From a virus: 33,478 nt of DNA. The notes under the pieces are model-generated. The model was not told the DNA's origin. It made no database searches and saw nothing but the letters and a program-made list of their open reading frames with translations. The first letter of the stretch is position 1. Each line of letters opens with the position of its first letter. The stretch is taken from positions 1 to 33,478 of the IMG/VR virus record IMGVR_UViG_3300005860_000225; one strand, written 5' to 3'. Below are positions 14,960-28,204 of this stretch, piece by piece. The position numbers and the translations under genes were made by a program.

Positions 14960-16045
14960 TTAGATCTTCGCCTTTAAATATATTCCTATCGCGCTTTGAT
15001 CTGTTCTAGGATTAACTATGTCTAGAATGTTTCTGATCTTCGAGTACGTTGGATATAGCTCGAACTTTCTTGCTCTGATGATAGCAGCTTCCTCATATTC
15101 TTTCTTCCTTCTCGTGATCTCATCTTTTGCTTGAATTATTATGTCAGCGTATTCTTCAGGATCATACAAATGCAGCTCGAATAGTATTCCAGAAGCTTCC
15201 TCGTAGAGCTTCTTTCCACGTATTGGAACTCTGAAAGAGGATTCTGAAGATGTTATCTCTGATAGAGGCTTATAGTTACCATGAACGACAGGCTTACCGC
15301 TAGCTAGAGCTTCAAGAACCGGAAGACCGAAGCCTTCTATTAGACTGAACTGTGAATATAGATCGAACATTCCGTAAAGAGTCTTTATGGATTCTTCTGA
15401 GAGAGATCCGAATCTATTTAGAAACATAACATTATCGAGATCCCTATAGAATTTCTCTGCTCCATCTCTTGACACAACTATGAATTTGATCTTTGGGTCT
15501 TTCTTCCCTACTATTCTCGCTACTCGAGATGCATAGTCATGCCCTTTTCTTCTGTGATCACTTGCTATATAGCCTACAATAAAGGTATCTTCACCTATTC
15601 CAAGCTTGCTTCTTGCTCTTGCTCCCAACGTAGGAGCATCCTTATATTGCGAAGTATCTATTCCATGGTAGACAACATCAATTACTCTGTACCCTGCTGC
15701 AACTAGCTTTTCTTTTGTGTATTCAGAGTTCGCTACGAAATCCACCTCTCTTCTGACCCAGTCAAATGCTTCAGGATTTCTCACGTAGCCTTCAATAGTT
15801 CCGTAGTATATTGTTTTCTTTCCTAAGCTAGACATTCTGTATGCTAAATAGAGATACTGGGAGCATGTAGCTAGATCTACAGGCATGACTATGATTCCTG
15901 CTTCAGCTCCAAGGATTGTGCCTATGTCTAGGGGTTCATATGCAAGGATTGGTTCATCGTTCATCTGCTCCAGAACTTTGGCTATGTCATAAGCTACCTT
16001 CTTGAGGCTCACTCCGATCTTACTGGTAAACAGAGCGATTCTCAT
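14960..16045 (-). CDS. GT4-type glycosyltransferase
   Basis: 361 residues, the usual size for a single-polypeptide GT-B retaining enzyme of family GT4. Landmarks: an N-terminal Rossmann half with MPVDLATC and the DFVANSEYTKEKLV segment at ~102-115; VVYHGID at 124-130; a nucleotide-sugar half starting at GYIASDHRRKGHD (158-170); and the family's E-x7-E motif in FSLIEGFGLPVLEALASGKP (Glu237, Glu245). Donor and acceptor cannot be read from sequence. Position inside the structural cluster suggests glycosylation of virion proteins. Because the window also hints at modified cytosine, sugar transfer to DNA is a weaker alternative. Start ATG follows AAGGGAT. Confidence 0.85.
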   Translation of the reverse strand: MRIALFTSKIGVSLKKVAYDIAKVLEQMNDEPILAYEPLDIGTILGAEAGIIVMPVDLATCSQYLYLAYRMSSLGKKTIYYGTIEGYVRNPEAFDWVRREVDFVANSEYTKEKLVAAGYRVIDVVYHGIDTSQYKDAPTLGARARSKLGIGEDTFIVGYIASDHRRKGHDYASRVARIVGKKDPKIKFIVVSRDGAEKFYRDLDNVMFLNRFGSLSEESIKTLYGMFDLYSQFSLIEGFGLPVLEALASGKPVVHGNYKPLSEITSSESSFRVPIRGKKLYEEASGILFELHLYDPEEYADIIIQAKDEITRRKKEYEEAAIIRARKFELYPTYSKIRNILDIVNPRTDQSAIGIYLKAKI

Positions 16046-17980: not shown

Positions 17981-20242
17981 TTATCCAGCAGGCTTTAGTT
18001 TATCCTTGATGCTCTCCATGAACTTGGTGTACTCTTGAGCAATCTTCTCTAGGTCAATCTTTATTTGTTTCTCTTCGATGCTTCTTAACCTATAGACTGT
18101 TTGACCCTGATCCTTGTACTTCACTGCTAGCCCAGACTTTACCAGCTTCTCGAGATACTCCTCTGCTAGTGCTTGAGGTATATCCAGACTCTCTGCAACA
18201 TACTGTGATGTTAAGCTTGGTGATGATTCTTGGAGTTTCTTTAGTGCATTGTATATAGTGAAGAGAAAGACATCTATATTCGTGAGCATTGCTCTAAGGA
18301 TATTCTTTGAGAGATCTATTGCTGTCTTCACATCTTCTGGAGATGCAATAACAACTTTCTCTCCGCTAATCTCGTAGAGTCTTCCCCTGACCTTAGCAAT
18401 GGATCCAATTAGAAGGAACAGCTTCTCGATATCTCTCCTGACTCTTGGATACTGTGAGTACTCGAACAGCGACTCAGCCAAGTACTTTGCTCCAGGAATT
18501 ACTATCTTGGTATTGCTTCTTAAAGCTTTTGACAGCTGCCTTATTTGCTGAAGCTTCTTTTCATCTATCTGAGGCTTGGATAAGTCATATTGATAAGCCT
18601 TATAGAGAAGCACTTTCTTTGTCTGCTCGGGAGAGATGTCTGGAGCAAGTATCCAGACTCTGCTTTCAATGTCTGCAGGGATATCCACATCTATGGTTGT
18701 CATCACTACTGAGTCAACTCTGATCTTCTTTTCAATGGTCTTTTTCTCTGTGGGGTCAACCACTAGTATTCTCAGTTCCTTATCACTCATTGCAAGCTTT
18801 ATGTCCATTGCCAATCCTTCACCTTTGATCTCTTCCAAGAGATCTTTTGGTGCTTCTTTGAGATAGAGTATTGGTATATAGTCTTTATTCATCCATCTCA
18901 AGAACTTCTTGGTTGCTCCAGAGACTATCTCAACCTCGTCTTCAGGGAACAGCTTAAGCACAGACTCAACCATTGTTGTCTTTCCACTACTAGGTGGACC
19001 TTTGACAATTATATTTTGCTTTTCTAGTAACAGAAGATATAGCAAGAGCTTGTTCTCCTCTTCTCCCACAACAAGTGCATCAAGGATACTCTTAACTTCA
19101 TCGAGCAAATCTTTATTCTCTGCTGCCTTAAGTGTTCTGAGCTCGAGTATTTTCCTTGATATCTCCTCCTCTATTCTTTTCTTTTCGAGAGGACACTTAT
19201 AGCACTTTAATGGAAGCATTGCCTCTCTGAAATACTCCCTTATCTCCGAGCAGTTCCAAACAGGTCCCTGGCCATTGTTCAGCTGATACACTCCTCTTTT
19301 CCAGCCTAGGACTTCGCTCTTCCTAAGACTATGACCTATTTTCTGCCTTTCAGCGAAAAGCTCTGCTATTGTTTCGAACCCGTCCATTGACCCGTTATGA
19401 TCGTAGTAATACGCTATAGCCAAGAACTTGGATGCTCCAAGCCTTCTTTTTCCTGGAGGAAGCGGAGTTGATAGCAGTGTCCTTATGCATGGCAACTGTA
19501 AGTAAACTATTCCCTCCTTCTTTTCATCAGTGCTCTGAAATTTCTTTTCTTCTATGTCCAATATTTCATCTATATACTTTAGAGCAAATGAGACTTCCGA
19601 GCTCTTAGATATCCTTGGTATGATTATCAGCGGGTTCTCTGACTCATGCAGAATATCTTCTATGCTCATGCTAAGAGATCTAACGATTATTGCTGCTCTT
19701 TTTGTCTCTGGATGAATTGTGTAGGGTATCCTTGCGAGTCTTCTTATGTCTCCAACTACCTTCTTGTCAAGGTATTTAAGTTTTGTTTTCTTTTCGCTCT
19801 CGAATCTCGATACTAGCAGCGATACTAGACGCGATATTGCTTCTTTGGGATGCTTTAGCTGAGTTTCAGGAAAGAAAATGTACAGATGGAATCCTTTTTT
19901 GCCTGAAAACACTATCACAGGCTCTATTTTTATTGACTGAAGGAATTGTGCAAATGACTTGACCTCTATCCAGCAGTCCTCTATTGAGCCTTCCTCTGCA
20001 TCAAAATCAAGGAATATCCTGTCTATTATTGGCTCCTTGAAATTGTTGTCCCTAAACTTATATACAGCTATATAGCAGTGCTTGTTTTCTCTCGTGCACT
20101 GGAGTATGAACTCGAATAGCTCATTGAGATCTTTGAGCATCTTTCTTGTCGGATCACCGGCTTCTCTTGGAAACGTATACAGCAGTCCATACAGCTCATC
20201 CAGCCTCTTGCTTATGTCTTGAGAGCTCGTCTTTCCCGACAT
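17981..20242 (-). CDS. Primase-helicase: PriS-like AEP + PriL-like Fe-S domain + AAA+ ATPase + winged helix
   Basis: 753 residues. An archaeo-eukaryotic primase core fills ~55-210: motif I LDFD (Asp79, Asp81), motif II SGKKGFH (Ser113, His119) and a third-motif region GDIRRLARIPYTIHP (~164-177). Next comes a domain with four cysteines at 252, 331, 347 and 350 (x78, x15, x2 spacing), like the Fe-S domain of PriL. A P-loop GPPSSGKT (415-422) starts a AAA+ module with a following ILYLKE element. A winged helix lies near 675-720. Fused PriS-PriL is known from Thermococcus plasmid pTN2; adding the ATPase makes a self-contained primase-helicase. The ATG follows GGGGAT and overlaps the upstream gene by 47 bases. 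Confidence 0.82.
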   Translation of the reverse strand: MSGKTSSQDISKRLDELYGLLYTFPREAGDPTRKMLKDLNELFEFILQCTRENKHCYIAVYKFRDNNFKEPIIDRIFLDFDAEEGSIEDCWIEVKSFAQFLQSIKIEPVIVFSGKKGFHLYIFFPETQLKHPKEAISRLVSLLVSRFESEKKTKLKYLDKKVVGDIRRLARIPYTIHPETKRAAIIVRSLSMSIEDILHESENPLIIIPRISKSSEVSFALKYIDEILDIEEKKFQSTDEKKEGIVYLQLPCIRTLLSTPLPPGKRRLGASKFLAIAYYYDHNGSMDGFETIAELFAERQKIGHSLRKSEVLGWKRGVYQLNNGQGPVWNCSEIREYFREAMLPLKCYKCPLEKKRIEEEISRKILELRTLKAAENKDLLDEVKSILDALVVGEEENKLLLYLLLLEKQNIIVKGPPSSGKTTMVESVLKLFPEDEVEIVSGATKKFLRWMNKDYIPILYLKEAPKDLLEEIKGEGLAMDIKLAMSDKELRILVVDPTEKKTIEKKIRVDSVVMTTIDVDIPADIESRVWILAPDISPEQTKKVLLYKAYQYDLSKPQIDEKKLQQIRQLSKALRSNTKIVIPGAKYLAESLFEYSQYPRVRRDIEKLFLLIGSIAKVRGRLYEISGEKVVIASPEDVKTAIDLSKNILRAMLTNIDVFLFTIYNALKKLQESSPSLTSQYVAESLDIPQALAEEYLEKLVKSGLAVKYKDQGQTVYRLRSIEEKQIKIDLEKIAQEYTKFMESIKDKLKPAG

Positions 20243-21308
20243 ATCCCCAGTCCCTCACAAGATATAGAGAGATCTCCTCTTTGCTTAGATAAGGCCATAC
20301 ATACCTGACTATTCTTCTCTCGTCTGGATCTTTTCCCGGAAGTATTAGGAGTATGTGCTTGAGATTGTACATCAGTGATGATCCACCATAGGGTTTGTAC
20401 GGATCATAGGGATTGATTGGAGACTTACCTACATGGTGAGTTATGAATATCGGTATCTCTAGCATTGTAGATATCTCCTCTAGTCTTGCGAACATACCGT
20501 TTATGAGAGCTGCCCTTGCAGGAAGATTCTGTGATCCGCTTCCAAAAACTCTCTTTATTGGCATTGTAAATGAGTCTATAGCCATTGCTGATATATCTAG
20601 GAACTGAGCCATCTTTAATGCAGGTGTCTCTTCTACAGATGAAGTGAACATTACTGTTGCTTCCATCTTTTTCTCTTTGACTTCCAAGCTTATGCTCATA
20701 CCTAGAAAGCTCATCAGAGACTCCAGTGTCCTCAGCTGGATGAACTCTACTCTTGCATCTTGACCAAATCTCTTGGTGAATATTGATTCGCTTCTGGATA
20801 TTGCTTCTGTAGTGTAGAATCCTTCTGTGTCCACATAGAGTCCTGGCTTCTTTGTATCAGCTGATATCTTGTAGAGCATCTGAGAGACAAACATTGTCTT
20901 GCCTACTTTGCTGGGACCTATGATTCCAATGATCCCTGATGGCATGGGTGCTAACTCATCTAGTTCCTTTATTCCAGAACTATAAGTCTTCGGTACAGGT
21001 GGTTTCTGATGTATGAGCGATTCCAATAGCTTGGTACTTGTAGCAGGATCTGCTTTGAGCAAAGTTGCAATTATGTGTTTGCAGATCTTGTGTCTATAAG
21101 TAAAGTCTGGACATGTGCATGAGTAAGAGCCATCTGAAGAGATTCTTACAATGTATTCTCCTACTTCCGAGACAATGGAGTCTTTCTGTGTTCTCAGCTT
21201 TACTTTGTCTATCAAAGATATAGCTCCACTTAGTCTCTCATAGCTTGTTATTCCTTTCCTAGATAGGAGTAAGAGCATAGCCATTACAGACGAGGATTCA
21301 TTTCCCAT
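20196..21308 (-). CDS. RadA/RadB-like recombinase ATPase with N-terminal SWIM zinc finger
   Basis: 370 residues. A SWIM zinc-binding motif (CTCPDFTYRHKICKH; Cys64, Cys66, Cys76, His78) precedes a RecA-fold core. Walker A is GPSKVGKT (131-138) and Walker B is the strand AMAIDSF (Asp245). The segment FITHHVGKSPINPYDPYKPY (~288-307) matches the L2-side region of RadA/RadB/KaiC-type ATPases. I chose the ATG at 21308 because the AAGGTGA site is five bases before it. SWIM fusions to RadA are known in archaea, but this order with a primase downstream suggests a role in recombination-linked viral replication. It overlaps both neighbours, so it belongs to the replication operon. Confidence 0.8.
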   Translation of the reverse strand: MGNESSSVMAMLLLLSRKGITSYERLSGAISLIDKVKLRTQKDSIVSEVGEYIVRISSDGSYSCTCPDFTYRHKICKHIIATLLKADPATSTKLLESLIHQKPPVPKTYSSGIKELDELAPMPSGIIGIIGPSKVGKTMFVSQMLYKISADTKKPGLYVDTEGFYTTEAISRSESIFTKRFGQDARVEFIQLRTLESLMSFLGMSISLEVKEKKMEATVMFTSSVEETPALKMAQFLDISAMAIDSFTMPIKRVFGSGSQNLPARAALINGMFARLEEISTMLEIPIFITHHVGKSPINPYDPYKPYGGSSLMYNLKHILLILPGKDPDERRIVRYVWPYLSKEEISLYLVRDWGYVGKDELSRHKQEAG

Positions 21309-21957
21309 GCTCATCACCTTGAGTAGAGATCACTTTCGATGGACAAAAGTCTTGGAAATTGCAATACTTGCACTCCCATTTATATCTGGGTATGCTTTGA
21401 AAGCTTACTAGTTGAGCTATTGTCCGAGGATCCATTTTTGTCTTGACGCTGAAGCTTTTTATTCCAGACGGAGAGATGTATAAGAGGATTCCTTCTTCGC
21501 TTTTGCATATAGTCAGGTATATCTGCATTCTCTCTATATGATGCTCTCTCTGAACAGGGAACTCTGAGTACTTGACATCAAGCAATGTTCCAGTCCTGAC
21601 ATTTATGTAGTCGGGGCTACCTGCTATCACGTAGTTTTGGAACTCCATGACGCAAGGCTCTTTTACTTTTTCGAACTCGAGCGACTTGAGATAGTTTTCT
21701 AATCCGTTTTCGACTATCTCTCCGATCATTACTGAAGGTTTGAATGAGGTTTCCAGATCCTTTTCTGGAAGCAATTCTGCATATGCTCTCTTCAGTGGGC
21801 ATTGTGTAAGCTCGTGAGCAAAGTATACTGGCTTCTTGTATTTCTCTGTCAGTTCATTTCGACTTAGCTCTCTGTTTATGCGGTATCTGAATATCATGCT
21901 CTTGCTTATCTTGTCTGCCAACTGAATAGAAAGCAGGCTACTTGACAACCTTATCAC
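21298..21957 (-). CDS. Cas4/RecB-like PD-(D/E)XK nuclease with four-cysteine cluster
   Basis: 219 residues. Nuclease motifs: GSPDY (Asp116), LLDVKYS (Asp127, Lys129) and a MQIY helix (Gln145-Tyr147, the QxxxY of RecB-type nucleases). Cys53 with Cys196, Cys199 and Cys205 (CKYCNFQDFC) form the Fe-S ligand set of Cas4-like proteins. There is no cas gene or CRISPR array here, so DNA-end processing in replication or recombination is the likely role, as for Cas4-like nucleases of other archaeal viruses. Start is GTG 21957; a TTG at 21948 better spaced from GGTGAT is possible. Confidence 0.8.
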   Translation of the reverse strand: MIRLSSSLLSIQLADKISKSMIFRYRINRELSRNELTEKYKKPVYFAHELTQCPLKRAYAELLPEKDLETSFKPSVMIGEIVENGLENYLKSLEFEKVKEPCVMEFQNYVIAGSPDYINVRTGTLLDVKYSEFPVQREHHIERMQIYLTICKSEEGILLYISPSGIKSFSVKTKMDPRTIAQLVSFQSIPRYKWECKYCNFQDFCPSKVISTQGDEHGK

Positions 21958-22590: not shown

Positions 22591-22791
22591 TTATGTAGCT
22601 ACCTTTTCTTTCTCGAGTAGTCTCTGAACTTCTTCGTGAGGTATTCTCAGCCTGCCACTTGGAAGAATTACTGGAACTATCCAGCCTTTCTTTATCCATC
22701 TGTAAATGGTCATTCTTGAGACCTTTAGTATTTTGCAAGCCTCTTCTACTGTATAGAGCCGAGAGTCCTGCTTCTTATAGTATTTGCTCAT
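22591..22791 (-). CDS. Excisionase/MerR-type helix-turn-helix regulator
   Basis: 66 residues. The whole protein matches the small HTH_17/excisionase layout: LYTVEEACKILKVSRMTIYR (helix-turn-helix), a WIKKGWIVPVILPSGRLRI wing and a C-terminal IPHEEVQRLLEKEK helix. No integrase or recombinase is present in the window, so a regulator role is more likely than excision. It is the first gene of the minus-strand replication operon, and its promoter element is duplicated in front of the divergent nucleotide operon, so it is a candidate switch for both. Confidence 0.82.
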   Translation of the reverse strand: MSKYYKKQDSRLYTVEEACKILKVSRMTIYRWIKKGWIVPVILPSGRLRIPHEEVQRLLEKEKVAT

Positions 22792-22913: not shown

Positions 22914-23309
22914 ATGGTAAATATCATCCAAGTAAGTGTGGATCCTAAAGAGCTTGAAGTTAAGGATAAACTTGAAGCAATGTTTGAACTTAATAAAAGG
23001 TACTTAGAATCACTAAAAGAGCCTCTATCTATACCTCTAGACTCAAAAGCAGGACAGGAGAAGCTTCGAAAACTCTTCTGGTATATGATTGAGGAACTTT
23101 TTGAAGCAGTGAATGCTTTGAAGAATGACAGGGACTGGGTGAGAACAGAATACGAGCTTGATCTTTGGAGAATCTATGACGAGATAGCTGATGCGTTAGG
23201 GTTCTTCATAACTATTTGCAGATACTTGAATCTCGATCCAAACAAGCTCTATGAGATCTACTTGAGGAAATGGAAAGTAAACCTATTCAGAGTAAACTCC
23301 CAGTACTGA
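22914..23309 (+). CDS. All-alpha NTP pyrophosphatase, dimeric dUTPase/dCTPase-like
   Basis: 131 residues. The motif EELFE (Glu60, Glu61, Glu64) and YDEIADALGFFI (Glu90, Asp93) form the metal-binding ExxE/ExxD set of all-alpha NTP pyrophosphatases. The C-terminal YEIYLRKWKVNLFR fits the YxxKxxxNxxR tail of dimeric dUTPases, a family that includes phage T4 dCTPase/dUTPase. It hydrolyses dUTP and/or dCTP to the monophosphate and pyrophosphate in the cytoplasm. It heads the operon with the thymidylate synthase homologue, which uses a dNMP, so supply of substrate to that enzyme is the likely job. Substrate choice cannot be read from sequence. Confidence 0.78.
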   Translation: MVNIIQVSVDPKELEVKDKLEAMFELNKRYLESLKEPLSIPLDSKAGQEKLRKLFWYMIEELFEAVNALKNDRDWVRTEYELDLWRIYDEIADALGFFITICRYLNLDPNKLYEIYLRKWKVNLFRVNSQY

Positions 23310-23319
23310 GGTGATCTAG

Positions 23320-24027
23320 GTGAGAATATACTCCAGCATGAAGGATCTCTTCTCAGAGACAGTTAGAGAGGTCTTTGCTAGAGGTCAGATAACTTTCGAT
23401 CCAACAGTTCAGGGAGTAAAAGTTCCTAGAGAAGAATATGAGATGAGGGAGCTCATAGGCTACGCATACAAGCTGACTGGCTGGGAAGACATGAAAGAAG
23501 CACTAGACTGGTGGAAAACTAAGTTCGAGAAAAAATTCGTAAGCTACGATACAGCTAAGAAGTGGGCAGAGGAGATGATGAAGCCGCTAAATCCAGACAC
23601 GTGGTGGAAGGGTGTTATGGACGAGTACTGGGCAAAGTTCTCAATCTATGGCAAAGTTGGAAGATTCGAATATACCTATGGAGAGAGAATCTATCCATAC
23701 CTTCACCTACTGATAGAAGACATAAAGAGAAACCCTCAAGGAAGAGGACACTTCATCAGTGTATGGTATCCTCATGACACTAGTGTAACTTGGCGTAGGC
23801 CTTGCACTATTGGATACCAGTTCATCTGGAGAGAGCCTAAAGGGTACATAATCATCTATCAGAGAAGCTGCGACTTAGTAAACTTCTTCCCTCTAGATGT
23901 AGCTAAAGCAATAATCTTTGCAGAGAGAGTTCTTGAGTTAGCAGGCTTGAAGCTGACTCATCTAGTCCATTTCATTGGATCATTGCACGCATATAGGGTT
24001 GATGTTCCTAAAGATCTTCAGTGGTGA
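23320..24027 (+). CDS. Thymidylate-synthase-fold enzyme with Asp at the dUMP/dCMP specificity site; probable dCMP (hydroxy)methylase
   Basis: 235 residues, ThyA family. The N-terminal part has YGERIYPYLHLLIEDIKRNP, aligned with YGxQWR...DQL. Catalytic Cys162 lies in RRPCTIGYQF, followed by YQRSCD (Arg182, Ser183, Asp185). From Cys162 the spacing to Arg182 (+20), the specificity position 193 (+31), His223 (+61) and Tyr225 (+63) equals that from E. coli Cys146 to Arg166, Asn177, His207 and Tyr209, with no gaps. Position 193 is Asp, not Asn. In T4 dCMP hydroxymethylase this residue is Asp, and Asn-to-Asp is known to switch thymidylate synthase towards dCMP. The GTG start sits three bases after a perfect GAGGTGATC. 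Confidence 0.85.
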   Translation: MRIYSSMKDLFSETVREVFARGQITFDPTVQGVKVPREEYEMRELIGYAYKLTGWEDMKEALDWWKTKFEKKFVSYDTAKKWAEEMMKPLNPDTWWKGVMDEYWAKFSIYGKVGRFEYTYGERIYPYLHLLIEDIKRNPQGRGHFISVWYPHDTSVTWRRPCTIGYQFIWREPKGYIIIYQRSCDLVNFFPLDVAKAIIFAERVLELAGLKLTHLVHFIGSLHAYRVDVPKDLQW

Positions 24028-24038
24028 TAAACACTGCC

Positions 24039-24764
24039 ATGGATCTCAGAGACACATATCTCTACCTTGTAAGGAGATCAGCTCAAGGAGAGAATTGTGG
24101 ACTTAAGAACATATGCATCACGAACATTGATCCAGCAATTGAGAGAATTCCTGAAATAGAGCCTTTCTCATATATCCTGATAGATAGGAAGGCTGATTCA
24201 ATCTTTAACCACTACTATAGACCTTATCTGGATTCAATAAAGCGTGGAGACATTGTAAGGCTTCCAAGAGAGACGTGTGTGGAGTCAGTAAGGTTTGATG
24301 GATCTCTAAACATCACTTTTCGTAGAGCAAGGCTGTTCCCAACGATCTACATTGACTTCCTTGTCATCGAAAAACTGGCAAGAGATCTTGGAGCTAATAA
24401 AGTAAGTCTCTGCTTTGCCAAATTGTCGAATAATGTCACTGCTCCATACTTCAAGGCTGCCATCGATGCTTTAGGAATAAGTGAAGCATGTTTATCCTGT
24501 ATCAGGACAATACAGAGAATGACAAAAATGTATTATGACATAGTGGAGCTGAAATACTTTCCCAGAATGGGGCATTTCTTGAAGCTCGCGGCATTCTACT
24601 TTGCTCATGTCCATAGAATCATCAGCAGGAATGAAGCAAGGCTTCTATATTACTATCTTAGATACAAGAACTCTCTTGACTCTAGAGTAAGAAAGGGTGC
24701 AGATTATGGAGAAGCAATCCATCGTAAAGTCCTATCTCGAATCAGGAGCAATAGTCCTGAGTAG
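24039..24764 (+). CDS. Unknown protein between the nucleotide genes and the DNA glycosylase
   Basis: 241 residues from ATG 24039, ten bases after GGTGAT; a GTG at 24021 is an alternative start. I do not recognise a family. The first ~95 residues mix helix and strand (DLRDTYLYLVRRSA, PFSYILIDRKADSI, RGDIVRLPRETC). The middle has a helix-strand IYIDFLVIEKLARDLGANKV and a conserved-looking LCFAKLSNNVTAPYFKAAID. The C-terminus is Tyr/Arg-rich (FYFAHVHRIISRNEARLLYY). Six cysteines are present. Its place in the operon makes a DNA or nucleotide modifying role worth testing, but the sequence does not show one. Confidence 0.6.
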   Translation: MDLRDTYLYLVRRSAQGENCGLKNICITNIDPAIERIPEIEPFSYILIDRKADSIFNHYYRPYLDSIKRGDIVRLPRETCVESVRFDGSLNITFRRARLFPTIYIDFLVIEKLARDLGANKVSLCFAKLSNNVTAPYFKAAIDALGISEACLSCIRTIQRMTKMYYDIVELKYFPRMGHFLKLAAFYFAHVHRIISRNEARLLYYYLRYKNSLDSRVRKGADYGEAIHRKVLSRIRSNSPE

Positions 24765-25299
24765 AGACAACAATAAAAATGCGAGATATGTCGACTTTGT
24801 CAGCAAGCTTCTATTATGTGCTAGATGTCCTCTTAGATCAAATCATCCCTGGCCTGCAAGCGGTAACCTGGATTCAAAGGTGATGATTGTAGGTGAAGCT
24901 CCTTCACCCAATAGATCCAGCTTCGAGAATTTCAGTGAGAAAAGCAGGAATATAGTGGATCTCATGCTAAAGGAGATGAATCTAAGCAGAAAAGATGTAT
25001 ATATTACTAATGCAATAAAGTGCAGCTTTGTAAAGCTCACCAAAGACATGAAGGAGTCTCTTCTGAAAAACTGCATTGATTATCTGATACAGGAAATAGA
25101 TATAGTGCATCCAAAAGTTGTAGTGGCTTTAGGTGGAACAGCTGAGAAGGCTTTGACTCACATAAGGAACAATGTTAGGTCTGACTTTATGCTTATCCAT
25201 TTTCCTCATCCAATGACTGTGGTTTACGGATCAATTAAGCTTGAGACATATCTCGAGCAGGTGAGAAAGAAGTGGACTTTAGTAAGATACTTGATATAG
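24706..25299 (+). CDS. Family 4 uracil-DNA glycosylase-like protein with Fe-S cluster
   Basis: 197 residues. Cys38 and Cys41 (LCARCPL), Cys106 (TNAIKC) and Cys123 (KNCIDY) fit the four ligands of the UDGa [4Fe-4S] cluster, with spacing x2, x64, x16. Motif A is VGEAPSPN (63-66 GEAP) and the motif B region is HFPHPMTVVYG (His165, His168), close to the family's HPS/HPA. The enzyme removes uracil from DNA. I chose ATG 24706 over GTG 24697 because GGGTG is six bases before it. It overlaps both neighbouring genes and lies directly before the polymerase. The GRPFVG segment of typical members is replaced by NFSEKS, so activity should not be taken as given. Confidence 0.8.
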   Translation: MEKQSIVKSYLESGAIVLSRDNNKNARYVDFVSKLLLCARCPLRSNHPWPASGNLDSKVMIVGEAPSPNRSSFENFSEKSRNIVDLMLKEMNLSRKDVYITNAIKCSFVKLTKDMKESLLKNCIDYLIQEIDIVHPKVVVALGGTAEKALTHIRNNVRSDFMLIHFPHPMTVVYGSIKLETYLEQVRKKWTLVRYLI

Positions 25300-27557
25300 A
25301 CTATTTTACTGAGCAGGGAGTAACTAAGCTAAAAATAGTCGAGAAAAGCAAGCCTAAGAGGATAGTTGTAATTACTGAAAAAGTAAGGCCTTACTTTTTC
25401 ATTAGAAAAATCGATATGAACAATGCCTCTAGCGTTATTCAGAGCTCAGCTTTAGTAGAGGATGTGGATGCAGTTACTATTTCAGGAGAGAAGGTTGTCA
25501 AAGTCAGCGTCTCCATACCAAAGCAAGTGAGAGATCTTAGAGACGCCTTAAACTCGATGGGTATACAGACGTATGAGGCTGATCTTCCCTATGTCAGAAG
25601 AGTAATGATAGACAAAGACATAAAAGTTGCGTATCCAGAAAGAATAGCTGCATTCGACATAGAAGTGGATGCAACAAAGGGATTCCCTGATATACAGAAC
25701 CCTGAAGGGAGAATACTTGCAATAAGCATATACGACGGGAATGAAGAAATATTCTTAAGCGAGGACGACGAGATAAAGATGCTGAAGGACTTTAATAAGC
25801 TATTGCCCAACTATGATGTATTCATAGGATGGAACAGCGCTGGATTTGATTATCCTTACCTTGTTAACAGAGCGAAGAAGCTGGGAATAAATATAGACGT
25901 GGAGATGTTTCAGCACATAGATCTCTTTGGTATATACTCAACATATTTCAAGAGAGACATCACTGACTTCAGACTCAAGACAATAGCACTCAAAGTATTA
26001 GGGGATAAAGTTCCTCTTGGAGCTCTTCTTGACTTTGAGAAGCCAGGAGAAATTGCTAAGCTTACAGAGTTCTTCTATAAGGATAAAGACAAACTTAGAC
26101 TATACAATATGGATCAGACAAAATCAGTATGGCATATAGCAGAGCAGACAGGAGTAGTCCAGACATACATCACTCAATGCAGGCTTGCAAATGTTCTTCC
26201 TTGGCATAGAGATTTGAGTGAAAAGATGATCGCTCATAGGAAATACATTTCGTATAACAGAATGATCGAGAACCTCGTATTGAAGAAAGCTCTAGAATCT
26301 AAGCCGAGAATAGTGTTTCCAAGCAAGCAGACTACAGAAGAGGAGTACGAGAACTATGATGAGGACGAGTCAACATATACAGGAGCAGTTGTTTTCGATC
26401 CTTATCCTGGCCTCTGGAGAAACGTTGTTCTTCTTGACTTTGCATCAATGTATCCCAGAGTAATCATGACATTCAATGTATCCTATGACACGTGGACTCC
26501 GAATCCTGGAGAGAATGATATACTAGCTCCGTCAGGAGGATTCATTACTTCTAGAGAGGGCTTCCTTCCTCAAGTTCTGAGAGAGCTTGAACAATACAGA
26601 ACAATTGCAAAGAAACTGGTAGATGCATATCCTCCTGGCTCAATGGAAAGAATACTGTGGAATGCAAGACAGTTTGCATTCAAGCTTCTATTGGTATCAG
26701 CATATGGAGTAGCAGGATTCAAGTACTCGAGACTCTATAGAATAGAGATAGCCGAAAGTATTACTGGATATACAAGAGATGCTATAACCAAAGCAAAAGA
26801 GTTCATTGAATCACAGGGCTGGAGAGTACTTTATGGAGATACAGACTCCCTATTCCTATACAATCCAAGCGTGAACTCGCTCGAGCAAGCTGTGGATAAA
26901 GCAGTACACGAGCTCATACCAACACTTAACAGCTACATCAGGAATTACGTAGTAAATCGATGGAGAGTGCCTCCAGAAAGAGTAGTCATCGAGTTTAAAG
27001 CTGACAGAGTATTCACCAAACTAAAACTCCTATCAGTAAAAAAGAGATACTACGGACTAGTAGGTTGGGAAGAGGAGTTCCTCGAGGAGCCATACATTCT
27101 AATAAAGGGTCTTGAAGCAAGGAGAGGAGACTGGCCCGAGCTTGTAAAAGAAATACAGGCTAAAGTCATAGAGCTATACTTGAAGGAGTCACTTGACGAG
27201 GCTCTAAAGTATGTCGAAGAAATGCGAAACAAAGTAATTAATGGAGAGGTCGATCTGGAGAAGCTAGCAATACGTAAGCATCTATCCAAGAGCATAGACG
27301 AGTACAAGCACAAAGCTCCACACATAGAGGCAGCAAAGATGCTTTTGAGAATGAACTATCCTGTAAGACCTGGTGACAGAATAGAATACATATTCTTAGA
27401 CGATCAAGCAATACCTCTTACTCCAGGACTGAAGCTGACTAAGTCTCAACTAGAAAAGTGGTGGAAGAAGTATGCAGAGCCAGTAGTAGAGAGACTAGAG
27501 ATAGAGATGCCTAGAGCATCACTCTTAGAGTTCATAACTAGAAGGGAGAAGAATTGA
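25272..27557 (+). CDS. polB: Family B DNA polymerase with proofreading exonuclease
   Basis: 761 residues, close to the size of euryarchaeal PolB. Exonuclease motifs: AFDIEVD (Asp129, Glu131) and GWNSAGFDYPYL. The exo III region (LYNMDQTKSVWHI) is less regular than the usual Y-x3-D. Polymerase motifs: A, DFASMYP (Asp389); B, KLLLVSAYG (Lys471), where the usual Asn is Val; C, YGDTDS (Asp523, Asp525); and KKRYYG. There is no long TPR insertion expected of protein-primed polymerases, so it most likely uses the primase encoded at 17981. The GTG start has GGTGAG eight bases upstream. The C-terminus SLLEFI is a weak PCNA-binding look-alike. Confidence 0.92.
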   Translation: MDFSKILDIDYFTEQGVTKLKIVEKSKPKRIVVITEKVRPYFFIRKIDMNNASSVIQSSALVEDVDAVTISGEKVVKVSVSIPKQVRDLRDALNSMGIQTYEADLPYVRRVMIDKDIKVAYPERIAAFDIEVDATKGFPDIQNPEGRILAISIYDGNEEIFLSEDDEIKMLKDFNKLLPNYDVFIGWNSAGFDYPYLVNRAKKLGINIDVEMFQHIDLFGIYSTYFKRDITDFRLKTIALKVLGDKVPLGALLDFEKPGEIAKLTEFFYKDKDKLRLYNMDQTKSVWHIAEQTGVVQTYITQCRLANVLPWHRDLSEKMIAHRKYISYNRMIENLVLKKALESKPRIVFPSKQTTEEEYENYDEDESTYTGAVVFDPYPGLWRNVVLLDFASMYPRVIMTFNVSYDTWTPNPGENDILAPSGGFITSREGFLPQVLRELEQYRTIAKKLVDAYPPGSMERILWNARQFAFKLLLVSAYGVAGFKYSRLYRIEIAESITGYTRDAITKAKEFIESQGWRVLYGDTDSLFLYNPSVNSLEQAVDKAVHELIPTLNSYIRNYVVNRWRVPPERVVIEFKADRVFTKLKLLSVKKRYYGLVGWEEEFLEEPYILIKGLEARRGDWPELVKEIQAKVIELYLKESLDEALKYVEEMRNKVINGEVDLEKLAIRKHLSKSIDEYKHKAPHIEAAKMLLRMNYPVRPGDRIEYIFLDDQAIPLTPGLKLTKSQLEKWWKKYAEPVVERLEIEMPRASLLEFITRREKN

Positions 27558-28204
27558 AGACAGTAATAGTAGACTCTAGAGAATGGGAGACAACTAGAGA
27601 CAGGATAGCTAGGAAGCTAGAGGAGCTTGGATTAAGAATAATTGTGAAGCCTCTAGATATATCCAACTACTTAATCGAGAGAGAAGACAAGACTCTACCT
27701 CTCCAGAGGATATACTACAAGAAGTATCTAGAGATGATAGCTAAGGGAGAAGTATACAACTTAATCTACAAGCTGTCAGGGACAGATGGACTGATACTGG
27801 TGGAGATAGAAGACTTGTCAGAAATAGGAGACAGCATTCCAGCATACGGTAAAGCACTAGAAGTATCTCTAAAGACTGCTCTAAAATATAGAGTTCCAAC
27901 TATCTTGTCCCACGTGTATCTCACTCCAAAGATAATATGCTACCTTGCAACAGAAGACTTATTCGACAGCAAGAAGAAAGAGACCAAGATATATACCAGT
28001 AATCCACGTGAGCTTGCATTAAGCATGCTCATGAGGCTTCCGGGAATTGGACCAAAGACAGCTGCAAGGATTCTTGCAACATTCAGAAGTCTGAGGAATC
28101 TTGCGAATGCTGATATGGATAGCTTGATGAGAGTCGAGCGTCTAGGAAAGGAAAAAGCTAAACTCATATACGAGGTCTTTAATTCATCTCTTGATCAAGA
28201 CTAG
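27554..28204 (+). CDS. XPF/ERCC4-like protein with degenerate nuclease site and tandem HhH
   Basis: 216 residues. The start IVDSRE (Asp7, Arg9, Glu10) matches the first strand motif of XPF/Mus81 nucleases. The later GDY and ERKxxxD motifs of active enzymes are not found: the equivalent region reads ISNYLIERED and LPLQRIYYKKYLEMIAKGEV. The C-terminus is a helix-hairpin-helix pair (LPGIGPKTAARILATF at ~162-177 and VERLGKEKAKLIYEVF at ~194-209), as in crenarchaeal XPF. So it may bind branched DNA without cutting, or pair with a host subunit. Start is TTG sharing TTGA with the polymerase stop, preceded by GGGAGAAG. Confidence 0.68.
   Translation: MKTVIVDSREWETTRDRIARKLEELGLRIIVKPLDISNYLIEREDKTLPLQRIYYKKYLEMIAKGEVYNLIYKLSGTDGLILVEIEDLSEIGDSIPAYGKALEVSLKTALKYRVPTILSHVYLTPKIICYLATEDLFDSKKKETKIYTSNPRELALSMLMRLPGIGPKTAARILATFRSLRNLANADMDSLMRVERLGKEKAKLIYEVFNSSLDQD

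Follow-up and report, generated by a model that had tools for sequence, protein, structure and literature searches.

Probable synthesis of C5-modified dCMP by the products of a pyrophosphatase/thymidylate synthase-like gene pair in a putative archaeal virus

The DNA analyzed here, called the window, spans 33,478 bases, is a single virus record of IMG/VR, and may be a fragment. An operon of six genes on its plus strand (22914-28204), all separated by small gaps or overlaps, begins with genes for a putative all-α NTP pyrophosphatase of the dimeric dUTPase/T4 gp56 dCTPase type (22914-23309, ATG start, 131 aa), a thymidylate synthase (TS)-fold enzyme (23320-24027, GTG start, 235 aa), and an orphan open reading frame (ORF; 24021-24764, GTG start, 247 aa) that overlaps the TS-like gene by 7 nt. 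The ORF list confirmed these three ORFs, all on the plus strand, where the original prediction had placed them, and the proposal that the pyrophosphatase/TS pair has an operon in common with the DNA polymerase was borne out. The remaining genes encode a family-4-like uracil-DNA glycosylase (UDG; 24697-25299; PF03167, 1.2e-22; Arch_udg, 1.1e-21, under its cut-off), a family B DNA polymerase (PolB; 25272-27557; PF00136, 2.3e-55), and, at the operon end, a Hef/XPF-like nuclease (27554-28204; NF010337, 2.1e-15, under its cut-off). Ten bases lie between the pyrophosphatase and TS-like genes, and the predicted GAGGTGATC is present there on the plus strand (23308-23316), with 3 nt between it and the GTG start codon at 23320, a position that fits a Shine-Dalgarno site of the TS-like gene. 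One copy in the window against 0.30 expected is unremarkable, and GAGGTGATC also occurred in 24 of 100 shuffles; the match alone could be due to chance. Codon usage supported all three ORFs as genes, with a good coding signal for the TS-like gene (0.357 bits per codon) and the weakest for the orphan ORF (0.159 bits per codon in frame vs. 0.121 in the best other frame).

A divergent operon opens with a small helix-turn-helix (HTH) protein (22591-22791), followed by a Cas4-like protein, a SWIM zinc finger fused to a RecA-like ATPase (20196-21317), and a primase fused to an AAA-type helicase (17981-20242) with no match in the phage collection. The archaeal-type primase domain, the Hef/XPF-like nuclease, and PolB, whose best named matches are haloviruses at only ∼22% identity, suggest that the virus is probably archaeal, and matches to tape-measure and scaffolding proteins are tailed-virus features. 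Elsewhere in the window, a protein with a ricin-type lectin C-terminal/agglutinin-like domain (1595-2260; PF18022, 1.7e-8), unusual in such a virus, is possibly an attachment protein. A GT4-type glycosyltransferase (14960-16045; phrog_2170, 1.4e-32) lies in the late gene block; it was considered as a 5-hydroxymethylcytosine-DNA transferase and dropped, its nearest solved structures being ordinary sugar transferases. Family-4 UDGs usually carry GEAPG and HPS or HPA type motifs; the UDG of the window carries GEAPSPN and HPMT, scores under the NCBIfam cut-offs, and might be active on 5-substituted uracil.

The pyrophosphatase ORF matches phrog_12184 (nucleotide pyrophosphohydrolase; 9.2e-14), with Pfam dUTPase_2 and PRA-PH matches under cut-off. 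It contains the metal-binding and catalytic pattern ExxE(12-28)ExxD at residue 61 and a C-terminal NxxRxxSxY motif. A profile made from phage cassette pyrophosphatases alone, with the window protein left out, detected both the window protein (4.7e-12) and the T4 dCTPase gp56 (3.1e-8). The metal site and the profile match place the protein among the gp56-like, all-α NTP pyrophosphatases, in line with the dUTPase/dCTPase-like identity originally proposed. dCTP is its presumed substrate, a preference over dUTP not being readable from the sequence.

The TS-like ORF matches PF00303 (5.5e-16, 59 bits against a cut-off of 24.3) and phrog_160 (8.2e-27), has its nucleophile at Cys162, and belongs to the TS fold by these matches, alignments, and phylogeny; among L. 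casei TS entries, its top match is the N229D mutant. The window enzyme was aligned with E. coli TS, T4 gp42, and 90 members of a clade found with an alignment query against the viral contig collection. Single-protein scans of the viral contigs with the TS-like protein, PolB, the orphan ORF, and a tape-measure-like protein gave no matches. Asp193 of the window enzyme occupies the column of E. coli TS N177, and Asp is found there in 90 of 90 clade members. The search pattern for the clade did not cover this column, nor does it force Asp177, since an almost identical pattern also retrieved two DPANN archaeal loci in which this residue is Asn. The TS-like proteins of these two loci (L096:166-867 and L097:899-1603) carry Asp three residues before Cys and so combine a dUMP-type with a hydroxymethylase-type residue. 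The N177D/N229D exchange is a known dUMP-to-dCMP switch of TS, and on phage contigs enriched for modified cytosine, TS mostly has Asp177 and co-occurs with PRA-PH pyrophosphohydrolase domains (PMC8670742). With Asp193 in place of the TS Asn177, dCMP as the likely substrate is well supported, in partial support of the predicted cytosine pathway. Equivalents of Cys146, Arg126, Arg166, Ser167, Asp169, His207, and Tyr209 are kept, and the second phosphate Arg is replaced by Gly143. Since Tyr120, Glu122, and Arg123 had been selected for by the search pattern, their conservation was given no weight. In a phylogenetic tree, the window enzyme branches off first in a 72-member clade, before all TS-like enzymes of the phage cassettes described below; T4 gp42, E. 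coli TS, and an Xp12-like enzyme fall outside this clade. The branch of the window enzyme is long, which makes its exact place unsure, and the enzyme is a deep branch of a widespread, apparently uncharacterized phage clade.

The product of the enzyme is less clearly indicated than its substrate. T4 hydroxymethylase needs Ser94 and Asp145 for water activation, and Ser/Thr two residues before Tyr with Asp/Glu three before Cys has been proposed as the mark of hydroxymethylases (PMC6400193). The window enzyme has Tyr118 for Ser94 and Arg159 for Asp145, and clade-wide the two positions are replaced together, by Tyr or His and an invariant Arg. The catalytic Glu58/Glu60 column, where the alignment is uncertain, holds Lys68 in the window enzyme and His or Glu in its relatives. 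The C-terminal TS tail is absent: after this His, E. coli TS continues for 57 residues and the Xp12-like enzyme for 63, but the window enzyme for 12 (after His223). T4 dCMP hydroxymethylase (dCH) has no tail either. The sequence thus does not fit a canonical ThyA, given Asp193 and the missing folate-closing tail, a T4-type dCMP hydroxymethylase as defined by the published signature, given Tyr118 and Arg159, or an Xp12-type dCMP methylase, expected to join a TS-like tail to Asp177, given the absent tail, which makes methylation less favored. With the signature and the tail missing and Lys in the uncertainly aligned catalytic Glu column, dCMP as substrate is well supported and the product is not; no clade member with a known product was found. 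The originally proposed analogy to T4 dCMP hydroxymethylase fails at the signature and perhaps at the catalytic Glu column, and a hydroxymethyl group is only tentatively favored over methyl or hydroxy.

The pair does occur elsewhere; its absence from other viruses had been named by the original prediction as part of what would refute it. The TS-like enzyme led to 69 dereplicated viral loci, 51 of them with at least 4 kb upstream, and a homologous pyrophosphatase lay within 5 kb on the same strand in 50 of those 51. A companion gene was present in 39 and a kinase in 32 of the 51, the kinase being missed in 19. All pyrophosphatase matches near TS-like genes (69/69) share the strand of the TS-like gene, and kinase-PPase-companion-TS is the commonest gene order (45/88 loci). 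In a reverse search from the window pyrophosphatase, all matches were to phages of Gordonia and mycobacteria; two of these, Muddy and Feastonyeet, were inspected, and both carry the cassette. A genome contig scan gave only five loci, with no close archaeal provirus among them. The pair thus recurs in unrelated viruses, often with a kinase. Shewanella phage Thanatos likewise encodes a dCTP pyrophosphatase, a dCMP hydroxymethylase-like TS, and a dCMP deaminase, and its DNA contains modified cytosine by mass spectrometry (PMC12838424). Some of the loci show further features. An asparagine-synthase-like amidotransferase, perhaps a further tailoring enzyme, lies near R-type TS genes on several contigs lacking a recognized companion (L013:3277-4782, L019:2051-3484, L015:7560-8885, and L018:2335-3717). 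In Rhizobium phage RHph_N34 (L012:5001-5777), pyrophosphatase and kinase genes lie upstream of a TS-like protein in which Asn replaces the pterin Asp and Glu stands three residues ahead of Cys, both as in AfhB, the dCMP hydroxylase of phage HY126.

In the bacterial phages, the companion itself has the TS fold according to its structure model (pLDDT 89), which matches AfhB (Z 13.0), the CMP hydroxymethylase MilA (12.0), and TS (∼10.5). Profile comparison related it to the TS-like family (E 2.3e-5, probability 76), its annotation in one record is pyrimidine hydroxymethylase-like protein, and one Cys, one Arg, and one Asp are kept in 28 of 28 aligned rows. A second, shorter companion-like protein lies downstream of the TS-like gene at two loci (L007:4885-5394 and L035:6840-7388); these two proteins were the top scorers in the companion core test. 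The orphan ORF had no family, phage, or locus match, no relative was found, and its single-sequence fold was unreliable (pLDDT 39). Alignment by eye had raised the idea that it is a TS-fold companion, which the tests did not support: it gave no profile match, and in core-motif alignment with the companion it ranked 12 of 491, with 20 of 300 shuffles equaling it, a signal that was gone with longer cores. The part in the cytosine pathway once suggested for this ORF could not be tied to it.

Among known systems, T4 offers members of both protein families, gp56 (dCTPase/dUTPase) and gp42 (dCMP hydroxymethylase), with the same likely substrates, and gp42 resembles the window enzyme in its dCMP-type Asp, SLH motif, and lack of a TS tail. 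However, the two genes lie apart in T4, the Ser94/Asp145 signature of gp42 is not kept, nor apparently its catalytic Glu, and identity is only ∼20%. The phage cassettes of Muddy, JacoRen57, Almagne, Polewnik, and many IMG/VR contigs likewise have a homologous PPase and TS-like enzyme, whose genes are adjacent in the window, an Arg three residues before Cys (Arg159 before Cys162 in the window enzyme), and a DNA polymerase nearby, but also encode a kinase and a TS-fold companion, neither of which was found in the window. The Xp12-like phage YB23 shows the same pairing of an Asp-type TS with a pyrophosphatase, its Asp177 TS adjoining a pyrophosphatase and a dCMP deaminase, but this TS has a long tail, has Asn three before Cys, and groups with E. 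coli TS. Beside the pyrophosphatase and this TS, YB23 also encodes a protein that by eye resembles HhH-type DNA glycosylases (L098:21739-22221) and possibly repairs deaminated 5-methylcytosine. MilA, which prefers CMP (PMC5175136), and AfhB combine the TS fold with the cytosine-type Asp, as the window enzyme does, and are the best solved-structure matches of the clade profile.

Taken together, we consider it likely, though well short of certain, that the first two genes act together as a nucleotide-pool module making C5-modified dCMP for viral DNA. The pyrophosphatase would cut dCTP, and probably dUTP too, to the monophosphate, removing ordinary dCTP; the TS-fold enzyme would then attach a one-carbon group to dCMP at C5, by way of a reduced pterin and a covalent adduct at Cys162, 5-hydroxymethyl-dCMP being the likeliest product. 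To supply the PolB of this operon, a nucleotide kinase, either of the host or encoded outside the contig, would convert the product back to its triphosphate. As the original prediction had anticipated, no kinase was found on this contig, possibly a fragment, the only match in the kinase search being a P-loop helicase-primase (5.5e-4). Of the self-contained pathway that it envisaged, the dCMP substrate, the gp56-like pyrophosphatase, the operon with PolB, and the recurrence of the pair are supported; the self-containment is not, given the missing kinase and an orphan ORF to which we assign no role.

The UDG in the same operon counts against a C5-modification pathway, since it fits a role of the pyrophosphatase in uracil avoidance, in which a dUTPase, a thymidylate synthase, and the UDG would exclude uracil from viral DNA and leave cytosine unmodified. 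The UDG gene overlaps its operon neighbors, the dUTPase_2 match, weak as it is, points the same way, and archaeal family B polymerases are sensitive to template uracil. Against this stands Asp at the N177 column throughout the clade, and five related loci also have a ThyX-like ORF, which makes the TS-like enzyme dispensable for dTMP there; we regard uracil avoidance as improbable. The same pathway could also end in 5-methyl-dCMP, as in Xp12-type phages. The N229D exchange turns L. casei TS into a dCMP methylase (PMC8670742), YB23, in which both XP12 primers match exactly, has its Asp177 TS next to a MazG-like pyrophosphatase, and Arg159 could not serve as the water-activating acid of T4. The Xp12-like enzyme, however, falls, on long branches, with E. 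coli TS and not with the window clade, and the window enzyme lacks a tail that could shield hydride transfer, which leaves methylation unlikely.

Less probable again is another C5 derivative, for example 5-hydroxy-dCMP made with flavin, as PDB titles describe for AfhB; our literature search found no paper on the AfhB structures. The clade profile matches AfhB (9iqu/9iqc) at 8e-21, as well as MilA and T4 dCH, and the paired replacement of Ser94 and Asp145 across the clade would suit a different chemistry. Yet the structure of AfhB contains FAD and lacks the pterin-binding Asp, which is Asn in AfhB and kept in the window enzyme as the Asp169 equivalent, favoring C5 modification with a pterin, and AfhB has Thr and Glu where the window enzyme has Tyr and Arg. 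We give equally little credence to a degenerate or inactive TS-like enzyme, with the pair a relic or regulatory. Lys68 at the catalytic Glu column, Gly143, and the long branch would agree with decay, but the remaining active-site residues are intact, the coding signal is good, and the gene is among the first of a replication operon. More speculatively, and with a low probability in our estimate, the Arg159 clade could be a separate enzyme type that forms a hetero-oligomer with the TS-fold companion and performs a C5 chemistry on dCMP unlike methylation or T4 hydroxymethylation; the orphan ORF would then be a highly diverged companion and an archaeal pterin the carbon donor.

Synthesis of C5-modified dCMP thus remains the most likely function of this conserved gene pair in a probably archaeal virus. 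The pair is known in kind, and the window enzyme is, by its sequence, a deep variant with an unusual active site. On this reading, cytosine modification would precede replication in a tailed virus that is probably archaeal, and we found no report of this in the literature searched. The large clade of phages to which Mycobacterium phage Muddy belongs, in which a dCMP-type TS is paired with a TS-fold companion, would offer a consistent putative dCMP-modifying cassette in growable isolates.
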